DNA of 39,076 bases from a virus: IMG/VR virus record IMGVR_UViG_3300025128_000122, positions 1 through 39,076 of that record; one strand, written 5' to 3'. The position numbers and the translations under genes are program-made. Positions within the stretch are counted from its first letter, which is position 1; the number at the start of each line of letters is the position of its first letter. Shown here in pieces: positions 9,404 through 38,901 of this stretch. Under the pieces are notes generated by a model, which saw only the letters and a list, made by a program, of their open reading frames with translations, had not been told where the DNA came from and ran no database searches.

Positions 9404-9766
9404 ATGTCAGGATTACTACCTCTATCATATACACTTGTTAGAACTTTAATTGGTGATGATGGGTATTATAAAATAGACAGAGATGATGGTGGACCTCCTC
9501 TTGGTTCATATAAAAAAAGGAAAAGCCTAAAAGGTTTAAATCTTTTGCTTGATTTAGAAATAGCAACGATAAGGATATACAATTCTAAAAAGAAATATTT
9601 AGGCTTTATCTATTGGAACAATTGGAATGAGGGTGATGAAAGAGTAAGTGATTACAGCACCTATTTTGATGAACATTGGGGGAAGTTCGGAGCAACAGCA
9701 ACGTGTGACTTCGAATCAATTGGAGACTTGTGCCGTGACTGGCATGAGAAATGGAGAGAACTTTAA
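9404..9766 (+). CDS. Hypothetical protein
   Basis: Unrecognised 120-residue protein, apparently beta-rich. It has a Lys/Arg patch (GSYKKRKSLKG), a strand run (LDLEIATIRIYN, YLGFIYWNNW), and an acidic, aromatic C-terminal half ending in a Trp-containing helix (DWHEKWREL). TAGGAGA precedes the ATG. Confidence 0.6.
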   Translation: MSGLLPLSYTLVRTLIGDDGYYKIDRDDGGPPLGSYKKRKSLKGLNLLLDLEIATIRIYNSKKKYLGFIYWNNWNEGDERVSDYSTYFDEHWGKFGATATCDFESIGDLCRDWHEKWREL

Positions 9767-9779
9767 CAAAGGAGGAACT

Positions 9780-10295
9780 ATGAGTTTTAAAATATACTTT
9801 AGCCCTAAAGAAATCTCTATGGCAGAGCAGGCCGGGGCGTTTAGATCACAGCTTGCCCGTGCTTCGGGAGTTAAGAACCAACGCATTGATCCAATTCGAT
9901 CTGATGAAGAGATTGATATTGCTGGTATCAAAGCAGAGATGGCAGTTGCTAAACTGTATCAGCTTGACCACGACCCCTATCATTTTGGGATAGACTCAGG
10001 TGTGGACTTGTGGTCAGGTGAAACATCTATTGATGTCAAGTCAACCTTCCATCCCAACGGACACCTTGTTTTTAAATCACTTGATGCATTTAAAGCTGAC
10101 ATTGCAATGCTTTGCATTGTTCAAGACAACGTGGTGAAGGTTACTGGTGGGTGTGAGAGGCATTGGTTTATGGAGAATCATGTAAGCCGAACCTTTTCTA
10201 AGAACAAGAAGGTTTCATTCCCTTCTTTAACACAAGGAGATCTCGAGCCTGTTAATCAGATTTGGAATATTCTTACTCATGCAAGATTATATTAG
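9780..10295 (+). CDS. PD-(D/E)XK nuclease-like protein
   Basis: A 171-residue protein with a recognisable restriction-endonuclease-type core: E53 in AGIKAEMAVAKLY, D76 in GIDSGVDLW and the D85-V-K87 pair in SIDVKST, followed by strands and a helix (LVFKSLDAFKADIAMLCIV). These residues normally bind Mg and cut DNA. The start is the ATG at 9780 after AAAGGAGG; the frame extends upstream but overlaps the previous gene. Its stop overlaps the ribosome site of the methyltransferase/dual-frame locus, so the three products should be made together. It may be a restriction partner, a phage nuclease acting on host DNA, or a repair enzyme. Confidence 0.65.
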   Translation: MSFKIYFSPKEISMAEQAGAFRSQLARASGVKNQRIDPIRSDEEIDIAGIKAEMAVAKLYQLDHDPYHFGIDSGVDLWSGETSIDVKSTFHPNGHLVFKSLDAFKADIAMLCIVQDNVVKVTGGCERHWFMENHVSRTFSKNKKVSFPSLTQGDLEPVNQIWNILTHARLY

Positions 10296-10308
10296 GAGGT
10301 AAAATGTG
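10294..10308 (+). promoter_or_regulatory. One ribosome site serving two overlapping starts
   Basis: AGGAGGT (10294-10300) precedes AAAATGTGG. The ATG at 10304 opens the 392-residue Trp/Pro-motif frame and the GTG at 10306, inside the same ATGTG, opens the methyltransferase frame. Spacing from the last G of AGGAGG to the start is 4 bases for ATG and 6 for GTG. One ribosome site thus appears to feed both frames; the ratio would depend on start choice. Confidence 0.6.
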
Positions 10309-11482
10309 GATAATACCAAAGAATCTATACGGCACCTGTCCCTCTGTGCAGGATACGGAGGGATCGACCTTGGACTCAGACGAGTTCTGCCAGAGTGCCG
10401 AACAGTCGCTTATGTGGAGATCGAAGCCTTCGCTATCCAAAACTTGGTTGACAAGATTGAAGCGGAACAACTGGATCCAGCACCTGTATACACGGACGTT
10501 AAGTCCTTCCCATTCAAAGAGTTTCGTGGATGCGTGGACATATTATCAGGAGGATTCCCTTGCCAACCTTTCAGTCAGGCAGGTTCTCAAAGATCGACTG
10601 AAGACCCTCGGCATATCTTCCCCTACATCCTCGAAGGAATCAGAGAGTGCCGACCCTCAGTTGTCTTTCTTGAAAATGTCGAAGGAATCATCTCAAGCAA
10701 AACAAAAGACGGAGAATCCGTTCTCCAATATGTCCTCAGAAGCTTGGAAGAAGTGGGTTACTCAGCAACGGCAGGAGTATTCTCAGCGTCAGAAATTGGC
10801 GCACCACACCAGAGAAAGCGAGTCTTTATCCTGGGCTACTCCACAAGTGATGGATCATATCAACGTAGTGAGGAAGCCAGAAGAAAGATCGGAAGCAGCC
10901 AACAAGGGAGGATGCAAGAATCTGAGGGAGGAAGTAATCAACTGGCCGACAGCACGGACATCAGATGCGGAGGGAGGTCCAATCGAAACGGAGCTATCGG
11001 ATCAGGGATTCAGATCGAAGAGACACAAGTCGGATCAATGGTTCGGAGCAAAACTACGGGATGCAGTGGAAACCCTGGAGAGCTGGCCGACTCCCACAGT
11101 AGCGGAGGCAGACAAGATAGGTGGCAGAGCGAACTTCGGACAGAAGGGATTGAACAATCATCCTGCAATCAGGGGGGAGCCAGAGAGAGACAAGCTCCAG
11201 AAGGACAGGAAGGGCAGCACAAAGCAGTGGGCAACGCCAACGTCCAGAGATTGGAAGGGGAGCTACAAGCCAGAAAGCCTAATCAGAAAGGACGGGAGGA
11301 GCCGACTGGATGCACTGCCTCAGATGGCAGAGTACGATCCCACCAGTGGCCGTCAAGACCAAACGAACCCCAATACGAATGGGAAGAACCCCGTGTCTTT
11401 GAGGCTCAACCCGAACTGGGTGGAGCAACTCATGGGTCTGCCAGTGGGGTGGACTCAAATCAAAACCGAACAGACAGACTAA
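10304..11482 (+). CDS. Trp/Pro-motif protein in a second frame over the methyltransferase
   Basis: A 392-residue frame lying almost wholly inside the methyltransferase gene. Four related motifs recur: WATPQVMD (177), WPTARTSD (214), WPTPTVAEAD (261) and WATPTSRDWKG (309). It ends LNPNWVEQLMGLPVGWT (368-384). From memory, proteins with a MWIIPKNL start, WPTP motifs and an NP.WVE.LMG.P.GW end recur in phages, so I treat this frame as real; I could not run a search. Trp codons are rare in chance frames, and thirteen in ordered motifs are hard to explain otherwise. Function is unknown. An accessory to the methyltransferase, or a DNA-recognition or anti-restriction role, would fit the position. 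The alternative is a chance open frame. Confidence 0.6.
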   Translation: MWIIPKNLYGTCPSVQDTEGSTLDSDEFCQSAEQSLMWRSKPSLSKTWLTRLKRNNWIQHLYTRTLSPSHSKSFVDAWTYYQEDSLANLSVRQVLKDRLKTLGISSPTSSKESESADPQLSFLKMSKESSQAKQKTENPFSNMSSEAWKKWVTQQRQEYSQRQKLAHHTRESESLSWATPQVMDHINVVRKPEERSEAANKGGCKNLREEVINWPTARTSDAEGGPIETELSDQGFRSKRHKSDQWFGAKLRDAVETLESWPTPTVAEADKIGGRANFGQKGLNNHPAIRGEPERDKLQKDRKGSTKQWATPTSRDWKGSYKPESLIRKDGRSRLDALPQMAEYDPTSGRQDQTNPNTNGKNPVSLRLNPNWVEQLMGLPVGWTQIKTEQTD

Positions 11483-11559
11483 GATTACTTGGCAATGGTG
11501 TTGTACCAGGTGTTGCTGAGAAGGCGTTTATGGTACTGTTATCCAGATTAATTAATTAG
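10306..11559 (+). CDS. DNA cytosine-C5 methyltransferase
   Basis: This enzyme family transfers a methyl group from S-adenosylmethionine to cytosine C5 in DNA. The 417 residues show motif I (LSLCAGYGGIDLGL, 11-24), the catalytic Pro-Cys of GGFPCQPFS (82-90), ENVEG (123-127), QRKRVFILGY (169-178) and the C-terminal GNGVVP (396-401). Residues 185-385, where the target-recognition domain lies, are unusually Gly/Ser/Gln/Arg/Glu-rich and poor in hydrophobic residues, the part that shares its DNA with the second frame. The start is GTG at 10306. It may protect phage DNA from host restriction, or pair with the nuclease-like gene upstream. Local GC content is higher than in the surrounding genes. Confidence 0.85.
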   Translation: MDNTKESIRHLSLCAGYGGIDLGLRRVLPECRTVAYVEIEAFAIQNLVDKIEAEQLDPAPVYTDVKSFPFKEFRGCVDILSGGFPCQPFSQAGSQRSTEDPRHIFPYILEGIRECRPSVVFLENVEGIISSKTKDGESVLQYVLRSLEEVGYSATAGVFSASEIGAPHQRKRVFILGYSTSDGSYQRSEEARRKIGSSQQGRMQESEGGSNQLADSTDIRCGGRSNRNGAIGSGIQIEETQVGSMVRSKTTGCSGNPGELADSHSSGGRQDRWQSELRTEGIEQSSCNQGGARERQAPEGQEGQHKAVGNANVQRLEGELQARKPNQKGREEPTGCTASDGRVRSHQWPSRPNEPQYEWEEPRVFEAQPELGGATHGSASGVDSNQNRTDRLRLLGNGVVPGVAEKAFMVLLSRLIN

Positions 11560-13348: not shown

Positions 13349-15082
13349 CTATCTTCTAGTAAAATCAGCAGGCTCAAAGGAACTATACGTTCCGCTTGCT
13401 TTATTGTAAGAAAGAAGAGCCATGCCCATCTTTCCTACCCATTTGAATCGACACTTCCATACATGGATCTCTGCTGTGCCGTCCGTTTTCTCTGGATCTC
13501 TGTGAACTGACAAGCCTACATCAGCCTTGGCAAACCATGCAGCACTACCGCTAATATCATATCCTTTAGGCACAGGAAACAAACCACCTTCCCTCATCAT
13601 TTTAGCAGGATGAGCAACAAACCATACATGAATATCGTTAGCCTTTGCAAACTGCCTGACCTTTGTCAGCATATCTGAGATCGCATCAGTCTCTGTCGTT
13701 TCTTTCTTGAGTTGTATAAAGTTATAAGGATCTATCACAAGACCCCTGATTCCCTTACGCATGATAGCGATCTTAGTCCTCTCAAGGATTGACTCTATGG
13801 TTGCTGGCTCGCCATCGTTCTGATCTATAAACGTAAAGTAATCACCCACCCACTTCTTTGTGTTCTGCATATTGTTCATGTCTAATCTCTCTGTGGGTCC
13901 CTCAAAGAAAGGTGTCCGAGACTTCTTTTCAATCAACTTAATTATGTGAGTCGGTGGATCATTCTCAAAAGAACACACTGCAAACTTCCACTTAAGTCTT
14001 TCAGCCAGGTTAACCATCATTGCATCAACAAACTCAGACTTACCAGATGAGGGATGCCCAGTAACAATACTCAACTGCCCTGTGCATATGGTGTAAAGAG
14101 GATCAAGTATAGAAAAACCAGTGCTTTCGCCCTGTGCCGTGCCATTAAGATAAAGATGGTCTACTCGGTCAGAGTAATGATCAACATCATACAGACCATT
14201 TATAGGCCACCCTTTTGCGGTACTAACTACCTCTTTGAGTTTGTCCTTACCGTGCTTGATAAGAACCTCGTTACTGTCCTTACAGTCTGATGGATATTTA
14301 ATTTGAAAGCACTTGATCTTACTGATACGTCTTGCAAGTTCTTCAGCAAGAGCAACCCCTTGTGCATCATTATCTGTAGCAATAATAATTTTCTCAGCTC
14401 TTTCCAAAACATCCTTGGCATGCCAGATAAAAGAAAACTTCTTGTCCTCTTTAGGATCTATCTTGTTATCAGACACCTTTAAAGGAGCGCCCCCTGGTAC
14501 AGAAATAACATTCTTATATCCAGATTCATAGATACTCAGAGCATCTATCTCACCCTCTGTGATACAGATTTCTTTTGCATCTTCCTCTATGTTCTGTATA
14601 CCAAAGAAGGACTTAGCACCACCGTCTCCGTCCTGCACAAAAGCTTTCTGCTCAGTGCATTTATACTTAACTGCATAAGGTTTATCCTTATCTCCATTAA
14701 AGTAGGGAAACCCTACTGCCGGGAGTTCTTTCTCAAGCTTTGAAAAGAACTTATTAGTTTCAAAAACTCCATAGTGATGTAGTGTTTCCATAGAAATCCC
14801 ACGATCTATAAGGTGCTGCAAAGCCCCATTATTTACAGTCTGTATATTCAACGGTTTAATTTCCCTTTTAATAAAAGTTATTTTGTCACTGTTAGGTATA
14901 AGCCCTGATACACCACAGTGATGACACTTATAAACAAACCTGTCCGTATACTTGGTGACAGACATTGTTCTTTCTTTTTTCTTTTTGCGGGTGTGACTAC
15001 ACTCAGGACATATGATCCTAGCGGTTTCATTGTCTGTTTCTGAAGCCCTTTTTAAAATTATTTCATTGACTTCATTAGACAT
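13349..15082 (-). CDS. Primase-helicase, T7 gp4-like
   Basis: Combined DNA primase and replicative helicase of 577 residues, acting at the phage replication fork. Domains in order: zinc-binding motif (C25-x2-C28 and C53-x2-C56), toprim-type primase core (TEGEIDAL with E176; ATDNDAQG with D237/D239), and a DnaB/RecA-type helicase with Walker A GHPSSGKS (342-349), Walker B-like GLVIDPY (about 440) and a VWFVAHPAK motif (about 485). This is the usual T7 gp4 layout and length. The ATG at 15082 has no good ribosome site of its own; a 17-codon leader overlapping the start and a short inverted repeat over the start suggest coupled translation. Confidence 0.95.
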   Translation of the reverse strand: MSNEVNEIILKRASETDNETARIICPECSHTRKKKKERTMSVTKYTDRFVYKCHHCGVSGLIPNSDKITFIKREIKPLNIQTVNNGALQHLIDRGISMETLHHYGVFETNKFFSKLEKELPAVGFPYFNGDKDKPYAVKYKCTEQKAFVQDGDGGAKSFFGIQNIEEDAKEICITEGEIDALSIYESGYKNVISVPGGAPLKVSDNKIDPKEDKKFSFIWHAKDVLERAEKIIIATDNDAQGVALAEELARRISKIKCFQIKYPSDCKDSNEVLIKHGKDKLKEVVSTAKGWPINGLYDVDHYSDRVDHLYLNGTAQGESTGFSILDPLYTICTGQLSIVTGHPSSGKSEFVDAMMVNLAERLKWKFAVCSFENDPPTHIIKLIEKKSRTPFFEGPTERLDMNNMQNTKKWVGDYFTFIDQNDGEPATIESILERTKIAIMRKGIRGLVIDPYNFIQLKKETTETDAISDMLTKVRQFAKANDIHVWFVAHPAKMMREGGLFPVPKGYDISGSAAWFAKADVGLSVHRDPEKTDGTAEIHVWKCRFKWVGKMGMALLSYNKASGTYSSFEPADFTRR

Positions 15083-15128
15083 TGGGGTAATATCCCAATT
15101 GAGACAGGTATGAATTTTCTCTCCTCAT
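15075..15128 (-). CDS. Leader peptide overlapping the primase start
   Basis: A 17-codon frame (MRRENSYLSQLGYYPNV) starts with ATG at 15128, with AGGAG six bases upstream, and stops at 15075, eight bases inside the primase gene. The primase start lacks a ribosome site, while this leader has a good one, so re-initiation from the leader's stop would explain primase translation. The peptide itself need not do anything. It is a short frame and might be chance. Confidence 0.45.
   Translation of the reverse strand: MRRENSYLSQLGYYPNV
15081..15099 (-). promoter_or_regulatory. Inverted repeat over the primase start codon
   Basis: ATTGGG (15081-15086) and CCCAAT (15094-15099) form a 6-bp stem with a 7-base loop that includes the primase ATG. 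In the RNA this would tend to hide the start codon until a ribosome passing through the leader peptide opens it. Regulatory effect is inferred. Confidence 0.35.
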
Positions 15129-15152
15129 ATTTTTCTCCTTTGTTCTAGTGGT

Positions 15153-15175
15153 AAGGCTGTCCTCGTGGCAGCCTT
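15153..15175 (-). other. Hairpin at the end of the resolvase gene
   Basis: AAGGCTG (15153-15159) and CAGCCTT (15169-15175) form a 7-bp stem at the 3' end of the RusA gene, before the primase leader. No T-run follows on the minus strand. It may be a weak attenuator or an RNA processing site between resolvase and primase genes. Confidence 0.3.
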
Positions 15176-15536
15176 ATTCTTTTATAACCTCTACTAATAT
15201 TTCAGATCGTGGATTTAATACATCAAGACCCCAAAAGATGTGCTTCTCTTTGACTTGTCTATCATTCTTGTAGATGTGATCTTGCATCGCATCGAGAACA
15301 ACAGACTCATCTAAATCAGGTCGCCTTGATTTATAAAAAATAGTCATAGTTACTTTTAAATCCCCCTCCAACAACTCATCAAGTGACGGCACTTGAGAGT
15401 GAAAGTCTTTAAGATAAGCCCTTGCTTTATCTGACTTAATAAAAGCTGGACGTTTCCCAAAGGTCACAAGTTTACGTGAGTTTGCTTTTGATGCAGGCTC
15501 ACCATAGATTGTAAAATTAACAGAATCTTTACCCAT
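15174..15536 (-). CDS. rusA: RusA-like Holliday junction resolvase
   Basis: RusA enzymes cut four-way DNA junctions in pairs. This 120-residue protein has the family start (FTIYGEPASKANSRKL) and the metal-binding Asp cluster in RRPDLDESVVLDAMQD...YKNDRQV (D74, D76, D82 and D92). Length agrees with the family. The ATG at 15536 follows AGGTATTGTCA; a TTG six bases upstream is in frame but less likely. It is divergent from the exonuclease gene, with only 50 bases between starts, and is followed by primase-helicase. Confidence 0.85.
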   Translation of the reverse strand: MGKDSVNFTIYGEPASKANSRKLVTFGKRPAFIKSDKARAYLKDFHSQVPSLDELLEGDLKVTMTIFYKSRRPDLDESVVLDAMQDHIYKNDRQVKEKHIFWGLDVLNPRSEILVEVIKE

Positions 15537-15586
15537 TGACAATACCTATTAATAAATGTTAATAAATGCTCATAGGAGAGTATATC

Positions 15587-16495
15587 ATGAAAATAACAAA
15601 TCACCATAACATAAACAAAGTTTTTGAGGAACTTATAAAGTCAGACGATTATGACATGGGGGATGTTGATATCAGTGTTACGGGTTTGATTGACAGTCCT
15701 AAGATTAGGATGCTTAGAGGTGTCCACGAAAACGATCTGGTAGCAGAGCTAAATAGTAAGATACCAGCAATGCTTGGTACGATTATTCACGAGAGGCTTT
15801 CTTCTGTGCCGACTCCGTACCCTTCTGTCCCGGAAGCTAGATTGATTTTAGAGGTCGATGGGTGGAAGATATCAGGTCAGCCTGACCTTGTATCCCTAAT
15901 CAACGATAAGGTGATTCTGAGCGATTATAAGTACACTGGAGAGTATTCTGTGAGGGTTGGTAAGATAGAGTGGGAACGTCAACTGAACGTGTATGCATAC
16001 CTCATTAAACATGGTGTCAGAATAGACACAGGAGATCCACTTCTCCTTGATGAGAAGCCAATAGAAAAGATAAACAAACTAGTTGTTACTGCCATACTCA
16101 GAGATTGGAAACAGCGAATGGCTATGAGAGATCCAGATTACCCACAAGCCTGGGTAGTCGATATGCCTTTTCGTTTATGGTCTGATGTGGAACAAAGAGA
16201 ATATATTGAAGAAAGAATTTTCCTTCATAAAGAAGCCCAGGAACTTTATGAAGAGGCAAAGATTTTACCTTCCTGTACTGACGAGGAGAGATGGATACAA
16301 GGTCATACTTATGCAGTTATGAAGGCAGGTAAAAAGAGGGCTGAGAAACTCTTCTCAGACCGATACGAAGCGGAGCAATACTGCTCCAAAGTAAAAGGGG
16401 GATATGTCGAAGACAGGATTCCCGAATACACCCGCTGTCAGAACTACTGTAATGTCAGCGACTTTTGTCAACAATGGTTAAGGAGAACTATATAA
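15587..16495 (+). CDS. PD-(D/E)XK exonuclease, Cas4/RecB-like
   Basis: A 302-residue nuclease of the kind that resects DNA ends for annealing recombination. Visible motifs are H68 in GTIIHERL, D100 in SGQPDLV, D113-Y-K115 in ILSDYKYTG and Q132 in QLNVYAYL. Four cysteines near the C-terminus (C266, C284, C288, C294; in YCSKV and RCQNYCNVSDFC) suggest the Fe-S cluster seen in Cas4- and AddB-type nucleases. The ATG at 15587 follows AGGAGAG. It begins the exonuclease-ERF-SSB-like unit, one base before the ERF start region. Confidence 0.8.
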   Translation: MKITNHHNINKVFEELIKSDDYDMGDVDISVTGLIDSPKIRMLRGVHENDLVAELNSKIPAMLGTIIHERLSSVPTPYPSVPEARLILEVDGWKISGQPDLVSLINDKVILSDYKYTGEYSVRVGKIEWERQLNVYAYLIKHGVRIDTGDPLLLDEKPIEKINKLVVTAILRDWKQRMAMRDPDYPQAWVVDMPFRLWSDVEQREYIEERIFLHKEAQELYEEAKILPSCTDEERWIQGHTYAVMKAGKKRAEKLFSDRYEAEQYCSKVKGGYVEDRIPEYTRCQNYCNVSDFCQQWLRRTI

Positions 16496-16496
16496 C

Positions 16497-17126
16497 ATGG
16501 AGAAAATGAACGACTTGATTGCAGCTTTAATAAAAGCTCAGTCTGAAATACAACACGCATCAAAGGACGGTAACAATCCGTACTTTAAAAGCGGATACGC
16601 AACACTTGAACAAGTTATATCAACCGTAAAGCCACCATTGAATAACAATGGTATTTACTTCCAGCAGCAATCACACGATTGTGAAGAAGGTGTCTGTATT
16701 GAAACTGTATTCTATGGACATAATGCAATGTTAAAAACTGGTAAGGTAACTATCCCTACAGATCGAACACCTCAAGGTCGAGGGTCAGGGCTAACATATG
16801 CTAAACGCTATTCCTTGAGTTTAGCCTGCGGTATTGGGCATCAGAAAGATGATGATGCAAATTTAGCACAGGATAATATTGCCAATGAAGAAGAGCGGAA
16901 GGCTTTACTTGAGCGGCACTTATCTAAATTCGATGATGAGAATATTGATTTTGATAACCTCGATGACTTCAACAACTACATTACCACACACAAGAGAAGT
17001 GGAGAGAGGATCAAAGGCCTTGATGTCAATGCATACAACGACATGAAATCAAGGATTGCAGCGAAACAGGCACAGCTGAAAGATAAAAAGCCTGAAGAAG
17101 ATCAACAACCAAAAGAGGAAAACTAA
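16497..17126 (+). CDS. erf: ERF-family single-strand annealing protein
   Basis: ERF proteins anneal complementary single strands and promote phage recombination. This 209-residue protein has the ERF domain from residue 5 to 120: LIAALIKAQSEI, then KSGYATLEQVISTVKPPLN, a QGRGSGLTYAKRYSLSLACGIG stretch, and the usual QKDDDAN close. The C-terminal 80 residues are charged, with a Lys/Glu/Gln-rich tail (KDKKPEEDQQPKEEN). It follows the exonuclease directly and precedes the SSB-like gene, the standard order for a phage annealing module. Confidence 0.9.
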   Translation: MEKMNDLIAALIKAQSEIQHASKDGNNPYFKSGYATLEQVISTVKPPLNNNGIYFQQQSHDCEEGVCIETVFYGHNAMLKTGKVTIPTDRTPQGRGSGLTYAKRYSLSLACGIGHQKDDDANLAQDNIANEEERKALLERHLSKFDDENIDFDNLDDFNNYITTHKRSGERIKGLDVNAYNDMKSRIAAKQAQLKDKKPEEDQQPKEEN

Positions 17127-37732: not shown

Positions 37733-38308
37733 CTAAAAAGTCCACGATACATAACTGTATCTCGTTCCCTGCGTTACTGGTGTAACTCTGTGTGGGTACA
37801 TAAAGTTACTCGGAAAGATCATTATAGAACCTTGAGGTAATTCTATTTTTTCTGTTTCCCACATTATAAAATCTCCACCTTCATAATCTTCATTTAAAGC
37901 TCCCACTATAGATAATACTGGGATTCCTCTTCTTTCACCGTCAAACACTGTATGTATATGGTCACAATGTTCTTTCATTGTTGTGCCGACTACATACTTG
38001 TTAAACCTTGCCTGAGTATATCCATTCCATCCATTAAACCAACTTTCAAAACTTTTAAAATCTTTAAGTATATATTGATCTATAGCATCCCATATTTTGT
38101 GACTTAACTTTAAAGAACATTTATCTTTTGCGTTAAAAGAAATTGCAAGATCATTGTCATAAGAAACATACTTATCTTTACTTGGTATATAAAACGAATG
38201 AGTTTCCCAATCATTATTTTGCAACTCTTTTATTACACCTTCGCAAAAATCCTTATCTAAAAAATTGTTATAAACCTTTACATAATCTTTTATGCTTTCA
38301 TTTATCAA
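37733..38308 (-). CDS. 2-oxoglutarate/Fe(II) oxygenase
   Basis: A 191-residue member of the prolyl-hydroxylase-like oxygenases, which hydroxylate a substrate using 2-oxoglutarate and O2. The iron ligands are H114 and D116 (KEHCDHIHT) and H173 (YPHRVTPV), and R183 (GTRYSYVSW) would bind 2-oxoglutarate. The upstream QARFNKYVVGT is also family-like. Its substrate is unknown; virion proteins or nucleobases are candidates. It follows a second oxygenase with an ATGA overlap. Confidence 0.8.
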   Translation of the reverse strand: MINESIKDYVKVYNNFLDKDFCEGVIKELQNNDWETHSFYIPSKDKYVSYDNDLAISFNAKDKCSLKLSHKIWDAIDQYILKDFKSFESWFNGWNGYTQARFNKYVVGTTMKEHCDHIHTVFDGERRGIPVLSIVGALNEDYEGGDFIMWETEKIELPQGSIMIFPSNFMYPHRVTPVTQGTRYSYVSWTF

Positions 38309-38901
38309 AGTTCTAATCCTGTTAGCTTGCTTGTATCTCCAAACATACCTTTAGGAAAGGTATTGCAGGATATACTAACTCTTTCTTCTGTTTCTGTTGG
38401 AGGGACCATATGCATTAAAGATGACGGAAACACCGCAAACTGATTACACTTCACATTAAAAAACCAACTTTCAGAATTATGTATATTAAAATCTTTTGGC
38501 TCTAATTTAATTTGATCGTACCCATCTTTAAAAAACATAATCTTATCTAGCTCATCATCAGCTTTAACATAAAAAACTCCAGACAAATAACTATTGCTAT
38601 GACTGTGCCTATGATGGAACTCGCCTTTTTTTGTGAAGTTTACCCAACTTTGAGTAATATCAAGAGACACATCTTCTTTAACTCTTAATACATTTTCGGC
38701 ATAATTATTAAAACAATTACTAATAAATGTTTTTAATTTACCTAAAGTTTTATTCTCTAACAAAGAATTATTAACACTTGTTGAGTTTCCCTGATTAGGT
38801 CTTTGCTTTTGTTTCATAATAAAATTCATTTCTTTTTTAGTCAGATCTCTGCCTAAATCAAAAAAACAAACTGTGCTAGGAAACAGTGTGTGAGCAATCA
38901 T
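38305..38901 (-). CDS. 2OG-Fe(II) oxygenase, TIGR02466-like
   Basis: A 198-residue putative oxygenase: the iron-binding region FHHRHSHSNSYLSGVFYV (95-112), the distal H164 (SLMHMVPP) and R174 (EERVSISCN) fit the TIGR02466 type often found in marine phages. A conserved W (ITQSWVNF) precedes it. The protein differs enough from its neighbour that the two are not a simple recent duplication. Starts in a TAATG overlap with the upstream partial gene and overlaps the next by four bases. Substrate unknown. Confidence 0.75.
   Translation of the reverse strand: MIAHTLFPSTVCFFDLGRDLTKKEMNFIMKQKQRPNQGNSTSVNNSLLENKTLGKLKTFISNCFNNYAENVLRVKEDVSLDITQSWVNFTKKGEFHHRHSHSNSYLSGVFYVKADDELDKIMFFKDGYDQIKLEPKDFNIHNSESWFFNVKCNQFAVFPSSLMHMVPPTETEERVSISCNTFPKGMFGDTSKLTGLEL

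Follow-up and report, generated by a model that had tools for sequence, protein, structure and literature searches.

The multispecific C5-methyltransferases of the Bacillus phages SPbeta and phi3T carry several exchangeable target-recognition cassettes in tandem, each about 40 amino acids long. Other enzymes of this class are divided between two polypeptides, as in M.EcoHK31I, whose small polypeptide is encoded in an alternate frame inside the gene of the large one. To our knowledge, bacteria and phages have few long same-strand gene overlaps for which selection has been demonstrated in both frames. In M.EcoHK31I, the large polypeptide carries motifs I-VIII and X, and the predicted recognition domain has also been assigned to it; motif IX is on the small polypeptide (PMC3404938). 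M.AquI, likewise a two-polypeptide C5-methyltransferase, carries motifs IX and X together on its small subunit (PMC3404938); it is split within the variable region, and its subunits complement each other.

The locus described here lies in a viral stretch of 39,076 nucleotides (IMG/VR record IMGVR_UViG_3300025128_000122), which is referred to as the window. It very probably encodes, by dual coding, a DNA cytosine-5 methyltransferase that is naturally split into two subunits, a catalytic one in frame A and a specificity subunit in frame B. Direct support comes from selection in both frames, from frame switches at the boundaries between motif VIII and the cassettes and between motifs IX and X, from cassette shuffling and from fused relatives. 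Like M.EcoHK31I as described in PMC3404938, the locus separates motif IX from motifs I-VIII and X, which stay together on one chain; it differs in that cassettes and motif IX are both found in frame B and in that the overlap extends over 1.17 kb from a common start. Unlike in M.AquI, motif X stays in frame A, and unlike in the SPbeta and phi3T enzymes, in which the cassettes share one frame with the catalytic domain, the cassettes lie in frame B, with putative multispecificity. Split C5-methyltransferases are known; what would be new here, on our best reading of the sequences, is dual coding over nearly the whole gene, with cassettes and motif IX on the second chain. A literature search of limited coverage returned no paper describing this overlap. 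Paenibacillus phage Sitara gp59/gp60 has the layout of the window, with gp60 annotated as 'g59 internal gene'; unlike in the window, its frame B starts inside frame A and not at a common start, and the role assigned to it is a database label only.

Both frames begin behind a common ribosome-binding site, AGGAGG (10294-10299, + strand, like all features of the locus given below), which by its sequence serves both starts. These overlap in ATGTG (10304-10308), where the ATG at 10304 opens frame B and the GTG at 10306 opens frame A, four and six bases 3' of AGGAGG, respectively, and ATGTG is present in 63 of 77 related loci. Frame A (10306-11559; 417 codons; stop at 11557-11559) matches PF00145 (E=8.6e-40) and is predicted to encode the catalytic C5-methyltransferase subunit, which has motifs I-VIII plus X, and frame B (10304-11482; 392 codons; stop at 11480-11482) the specificity subunit, with the cassettes and motif IX (phrog_1008, E=1.9e-23). 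The overlap of two long open reading frames reported in the initial annotation was thus confirmed, including its coordinates, and frame B is also open, with few exceptions, in 80 IMG/VR relatives.

Within frame A, motifs I, IV (PCQ), VI (ENV) and VIII follow each other in order, as indicated by the PF00145 match and by alignment. The catalytic core with motifs I-VIII (10330-10857) contains GFPCQPF in motif IV, and its substitutions are highest at A codon position 3. The stretch over the recognition region (10861-11478) is hydrophilic and, apart from staying open, unconstrained; no family matches frame A between motifs VIII and X, and neither motif IX nor a recognisable target-recognition domain was found in this frame. 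Motif X, LRLLGNGVVPGVAEKAF... (11479-11556), which contains LRLLGNGVVP, forms the C-terminal end; it begins at the B stop codon (11480-11482) and shows a diversity at A1/A2/A3 of 0.20/0.17/0.66. The motifs originally listed for frame A (I, IV, VI, VIII and X) are therefore present, but its description as a complete methyltransferase does not hold, because the PF00145 (DNA_methylase) match is confined to residues 9-184, that is, to profile positions 2-167 of 324 or motifs I-VIII, and motif IX is missing. Frame A alone as a complete single-chain C5-methyltransferase was ruled out on the basis of this half-length match and because selection on the recognition region and on motif IX acts in frame B. 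Nor do A and B represent two complete proteins, as had been supposed: what one lacks, the other carries, and jointly they hold motifs I, IV, VI, VIII, IX and X of a C5-cytosine DNA methyltransferase.

Frame B holds the DNA-recognition region and also motif IX (RLNPNWVEQLMGLPVGWT). The N-terminal part of this frame, above the catalytic core (10304-10831), is kept open, and its second half consists of 1-7 cassettes of about 41 amino acids, each starting with W-x-T-P, which are followed by a linker and then by LNPNWVEQLMGLPVGWT. In the window, the four ordered W motifs noted initially were recovered as WATP, WPTA, WPTP and WATP, with LNPNWVEQLMGLPVGWT after them. The corresponding cassettes are WATPQVMDH...LREEVIN (10832-10942, family 1), WPTARTSDAEGG...LRDAVETLES (10943-11083, family 0), WPTPTVAEADKIGG... 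(11084-11227, family 3) and WATPTSRDWKG...LPQMAEYDPTS (11228-11347, family 2), and motif IX occupies 11405-11455, with a diversity at B1/B2/B3 of 0.11/0.04/0.44. Tandem exchangeable recognition cassettes, as in multispecific C5-methyltransferases, were found in 41 loci (1-7 in each), where the families vary in order and number, for example 1-0-3-2 in the window, 0-9-2-4 in L011 and 2-1-0-8-44 in L076. In a test for transfer at the DNA level, only 15% of sampled pairs had a cassette identity above that of the catalytic domain, so that the shuffling is mostly old, with a few recent cases such as L056/L076 (94% in the cassette vs 69% in the catalytic domain).

Several lines of evidence on the identity of frame B were set aside or remained negative. 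No Pfam family fits frame B, and a search of solved structures with the B cassette profile gave no match. The predicted structure of the cassette part is poor (mean pLDDT 58, pTM 0.27; cassette 2 is the most confident section, with pLDDT 77-88), and this model was dropped as evidence because of its low confidence; the putative DNA-reading role of the cassettes is consequently drawn from where they lie in fused enzymes. The label 'DNA methyltransferase' of phrog_1008 was rejected, as it stands, as direct proof of the identity of B, because the model mixes B with motif X, as expected from relatives of the Ryadel type (see below), in which the second piece carries cassettes, IX and X. B as a stand-alone family was likewise rejected, since the Sphingomonas plasmid, PMG1, Alfacinha3 and KX1 all have frame A overlapping; among the records examined, no B relative was found without a methyltransferase catalytic frame nearby.

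The length of frame B had been judged improbable by chance, and shuffling of codons agrees with this view. When the synonymous codons of A were shuffled, 3.5 + 2.2 B-frame stops were expected on average in the window and none was seen; across 37 loci, a set chosen by frame B, 223 B stops were expected against 0 seen, and the reverse shuffle, of the codons of B, gave 466 expected A stops in these loci, again with 0 seen. Because this set was chosen by B, the openness test was repeated on loci found only by the catalytic frame. Stops in frame B of homologous loci, which could have spoken against dual coding, are absent from 67 of these 71 loci in frame +1, and frame +2 is stop-free in 0/71. With the A frame of an Acinetobacter phage as query, frame +1 was stop-free after codon 180 in 77/77 loci, and in 75/75 loci with a recognised motif IX, frame +1 is open from codon 10 on.

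Selection alternates along the gene, acting in A over motifs I-VIII, in B over the recognition region and motif IX, and in A over motif X. Over the first 183 codons, changes are most frequent at A position 3. In the catalytic part, 0 of 272 possible B-stop changes were seen in intact pairs, and when loci carrying B stops were included, B-stop changes reached 2.1% vs about 20%; such pair counts are not independent, as many comparisons have loci in common, and the contrasts are large. Amino-acid selection in B over the catalytic core is weak on average (conservative 11.5% vs radical 9.4%; controls 21.7 vs 19.2%). At 10396-10485 and 10726-10785 (codons 31-60 and 141-160), A-synonymous change is clearly lower than in most other intervals, and these two stretches look constrained beyond A, by B or by another signal.

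Over the recognition region, the initial annotation had proposed that the rate of change be compared with that expected from frame A, and the DNA there changes like a gene in B, not A: substitutions at B1/B2/B3 amount to 25/18.5/56%, compared with 26.6/18.9/54.5% in 72 ordinary neighbouring genes. Changes that are synonymous in B run at 25.5% when conservative in A and at 24.7% when radical in A, and of 3436 possible A-stop changes none was seen. This part of A had been described as low in hydrophobic residues, as if constrained; it is indeed hydrophilic, but constraint at the protein level is not seen, as conservative and radical changes are about equally frequent and only stops are avoided. 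Since the DNA in this region is selected in frame B, the A stretch needs only to avoid stops. The pattern of change at motif IX is that of frame B, and at motif X, directly after it, that of frame A.

In some lineages (L021, L031-L033, L040, L054 and L055), frame A has many stops over the recognition region while B is intact, remaining open even where 14-16 stops interrupt A; the recognition stretch of A is therefore dispensable, and B is not. Codon bias is able to keep one alternative frame open, and frame B might then be untranslated and owe its openness to such bias or to composition. We consider this extremely unlikely in view of the codon shuffle (223 stops expected vs 0), the openness of B in these stop-rich lineages and the codon-position pattern of a coding gene that is seen in B. 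The proposed link of long dual coding to DNA modification is instead supported, given that B relatives exist, that B stops are absent and that the rate of change fits frame B.

Homologues of frame B beyond the overlapped form, which the initial annotation had regarded as decisive, were found as parts of fused enzymes. In Mycobacteriophage ShiLan gp70 and 15 IMG/VR loci, a single frame holds cassettes, linker and motif IX together with motifs I-VIII and X. These fused actinophage C5-methyltransferases (ShiLan gp70; IMG/VR L255-L270) share with the window the W/L-P-T-P cassettes, the linker, motif IX and the catalytic family, and are unlike it in having all parts in one frame and several stops in frame +1. 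The C-terminal end of B aligns to the place of motif IX in fused enzymes (hhalign E=4.7e-6), and PF00145 covers a fused relative end to end. HMMER puts motifs IX and X of the fused protein on KLHPRECARVMGYPDSY...GNSVV of M.HhaI, weakly and with the alignment of IX alone below significance, and the predicted structure of the fused protein matches M.HhaI over its full length. Intermediate arrangements are seen in Ryadel gp8/gp7 and Arthrobacter ArV1 067a/067b, which have the layout of M.AquI: the two pieces of the split gene overlap in part, and the second, in frame +1, comprises cassettes, IX and X. The fused relatives also bear on the idea that B is a real protein of unrelated function, for instance in anti-restriction or regulation, overprinted on a self-sufficient A. 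Such a function would suit the two N-terminal B stretches that look constrained beyond A and the lack of a Pfam family for B; it is nevertheless improbable, because fused relatives contain the B cassettes and motif IX inside the methyltransferase chain, and because A has neither motif IX nor protein-level constraint in its recognition region.

A similarly low probability is assigned to programmed frameshifting, in which ribosomes would start in A, move into B once past motif VIII and return to A for motif X, yielding a single full-length enzyme. The functional segments do follow each other as A-B-A in exact domain order, which is also their order within the one chain of the fused enzymes. Frameshifting, however, needs neither an open B over the catalytic part (0/272) nor an open A over the recognition part (0/3436), and B has its own ATG at the common start. 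Furthermore, in the stop-rich lineages L031 and L040, AAAGGAGAAAAATC-ATG after the last A stop opens an ORF of 105-110 codons with motif X, which thus has its own ribosome-binding site and ATG and turns the locus into a three-piece gene.

According to the favoured explanation, a two-subunit enzyme, the ATG at 10304 and the GTG at 10306 would be translated independently behind the one ribosome-binding site, and each polypeptide would have one section that is largely a read-through by-product of the other frame. The frame A product would act as the catalytic subunit, contributing AdoMet binding, the Cys in PCQ and motifs I-VIII plus X. The frame B product would be the specificity subunit, in which the W-x-T-P cassettes of about 41 amino acids may serve as target-recognition elements and the subsequent motif IX may hold the small domain to the catalytic domain. 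We infer that the two frames are both expressed as proteins which pair, that the individual cassettes read DNA, and that the pair would methylate phage DNA, most likely for protection against host restriction.

Hundreds of phages and prophages, from different bacterial phyla, show the same arrangement. Its nested form was found in phages of Paenibacillus, Acinetobacter, Synechococcus, Rhodobacter, Komagataeibacter, Acidovorax, Salmonella (epsilon15 gp41), Burkholderia, Escherichia and Lacticaseibacillus. Of 80 bacterial-genome loci, whose titles name, among others, Verrucomicrobia, Planctomycetes, Proteobacteria, Bacteroidota, Firmicutes, Myxococcus and Nitrospirae, motif IX is in frame +1 in 61 and in the same frame in two, both from Streptomyces; dual-frame overlap therefore looks like the rule for a large group of methyltransferases. 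Several records list B under names such as 'g59 internal gene', 'hypothetical protein', 'Mte8-like' or 'cytosine-specific methyltransferase'; in Acidovorax phage Alfacinha3 (L094, 1514-2680), frame B encodes the protein annotated as 'cytosine-specific methyltransferase' (UYL85448), and the catalytic frame is unannotated. As standard annotation usually keeps one frame, most records lack the part that is predicted to decide the target, and assays of the annotated gene for activity would consequently fail or mislead. The chances seem evenly divided on the broader proposal that an annotated 'DNA cytosine methyltransferase' of the window type is, in the phages and prophages of many phyla, the catalytic half of a multispecific enzyme, whose recombining cassettes are hidden in the +1 frame and which is retargeted by shuffling with both frames kept open. 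The locus also offers a natural system for studying the origin and persistence of overlapping genes, with its frame mosaic, its fused, partly overlapped, nested and three-piece forms, and its shuffling under the constraint of two frames.

Some further observations concern individual loci and the genomic surroundings. In Komagataeibacter phage phiKX1 (L092, 1676-3325), an HNH-like Cys/His-rich stretch lies between IX (B) and X (A), with A open throughout, and frame A of L125 has a CxxC-rich stretch between motifs VIII and X, unlike the usual filler. Upstream of the locus in the window, an ORF at 9648-10295 (+), which ends 8 bases before the common start, has weak matches, below the cut-off, to phrog_18407 and DUF5843; by eye, its 'VDLWSGETSIDVKST' resembles a PD-(D/E)xK nuclease core, so that a linked nuclease is possible. 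Elsewhere, the same phage carries a putative 2OG-Fe(II) oxygenase at 38305-38901 (-) (PF13759, E=2.4e-18), and a replication/recombination region at 13349-17126 comprises a DNA primase/helicase (13349-15082, -), an exonuclease (15566-16495, +) and an Erf-type annealing protein (16497-17126, +).
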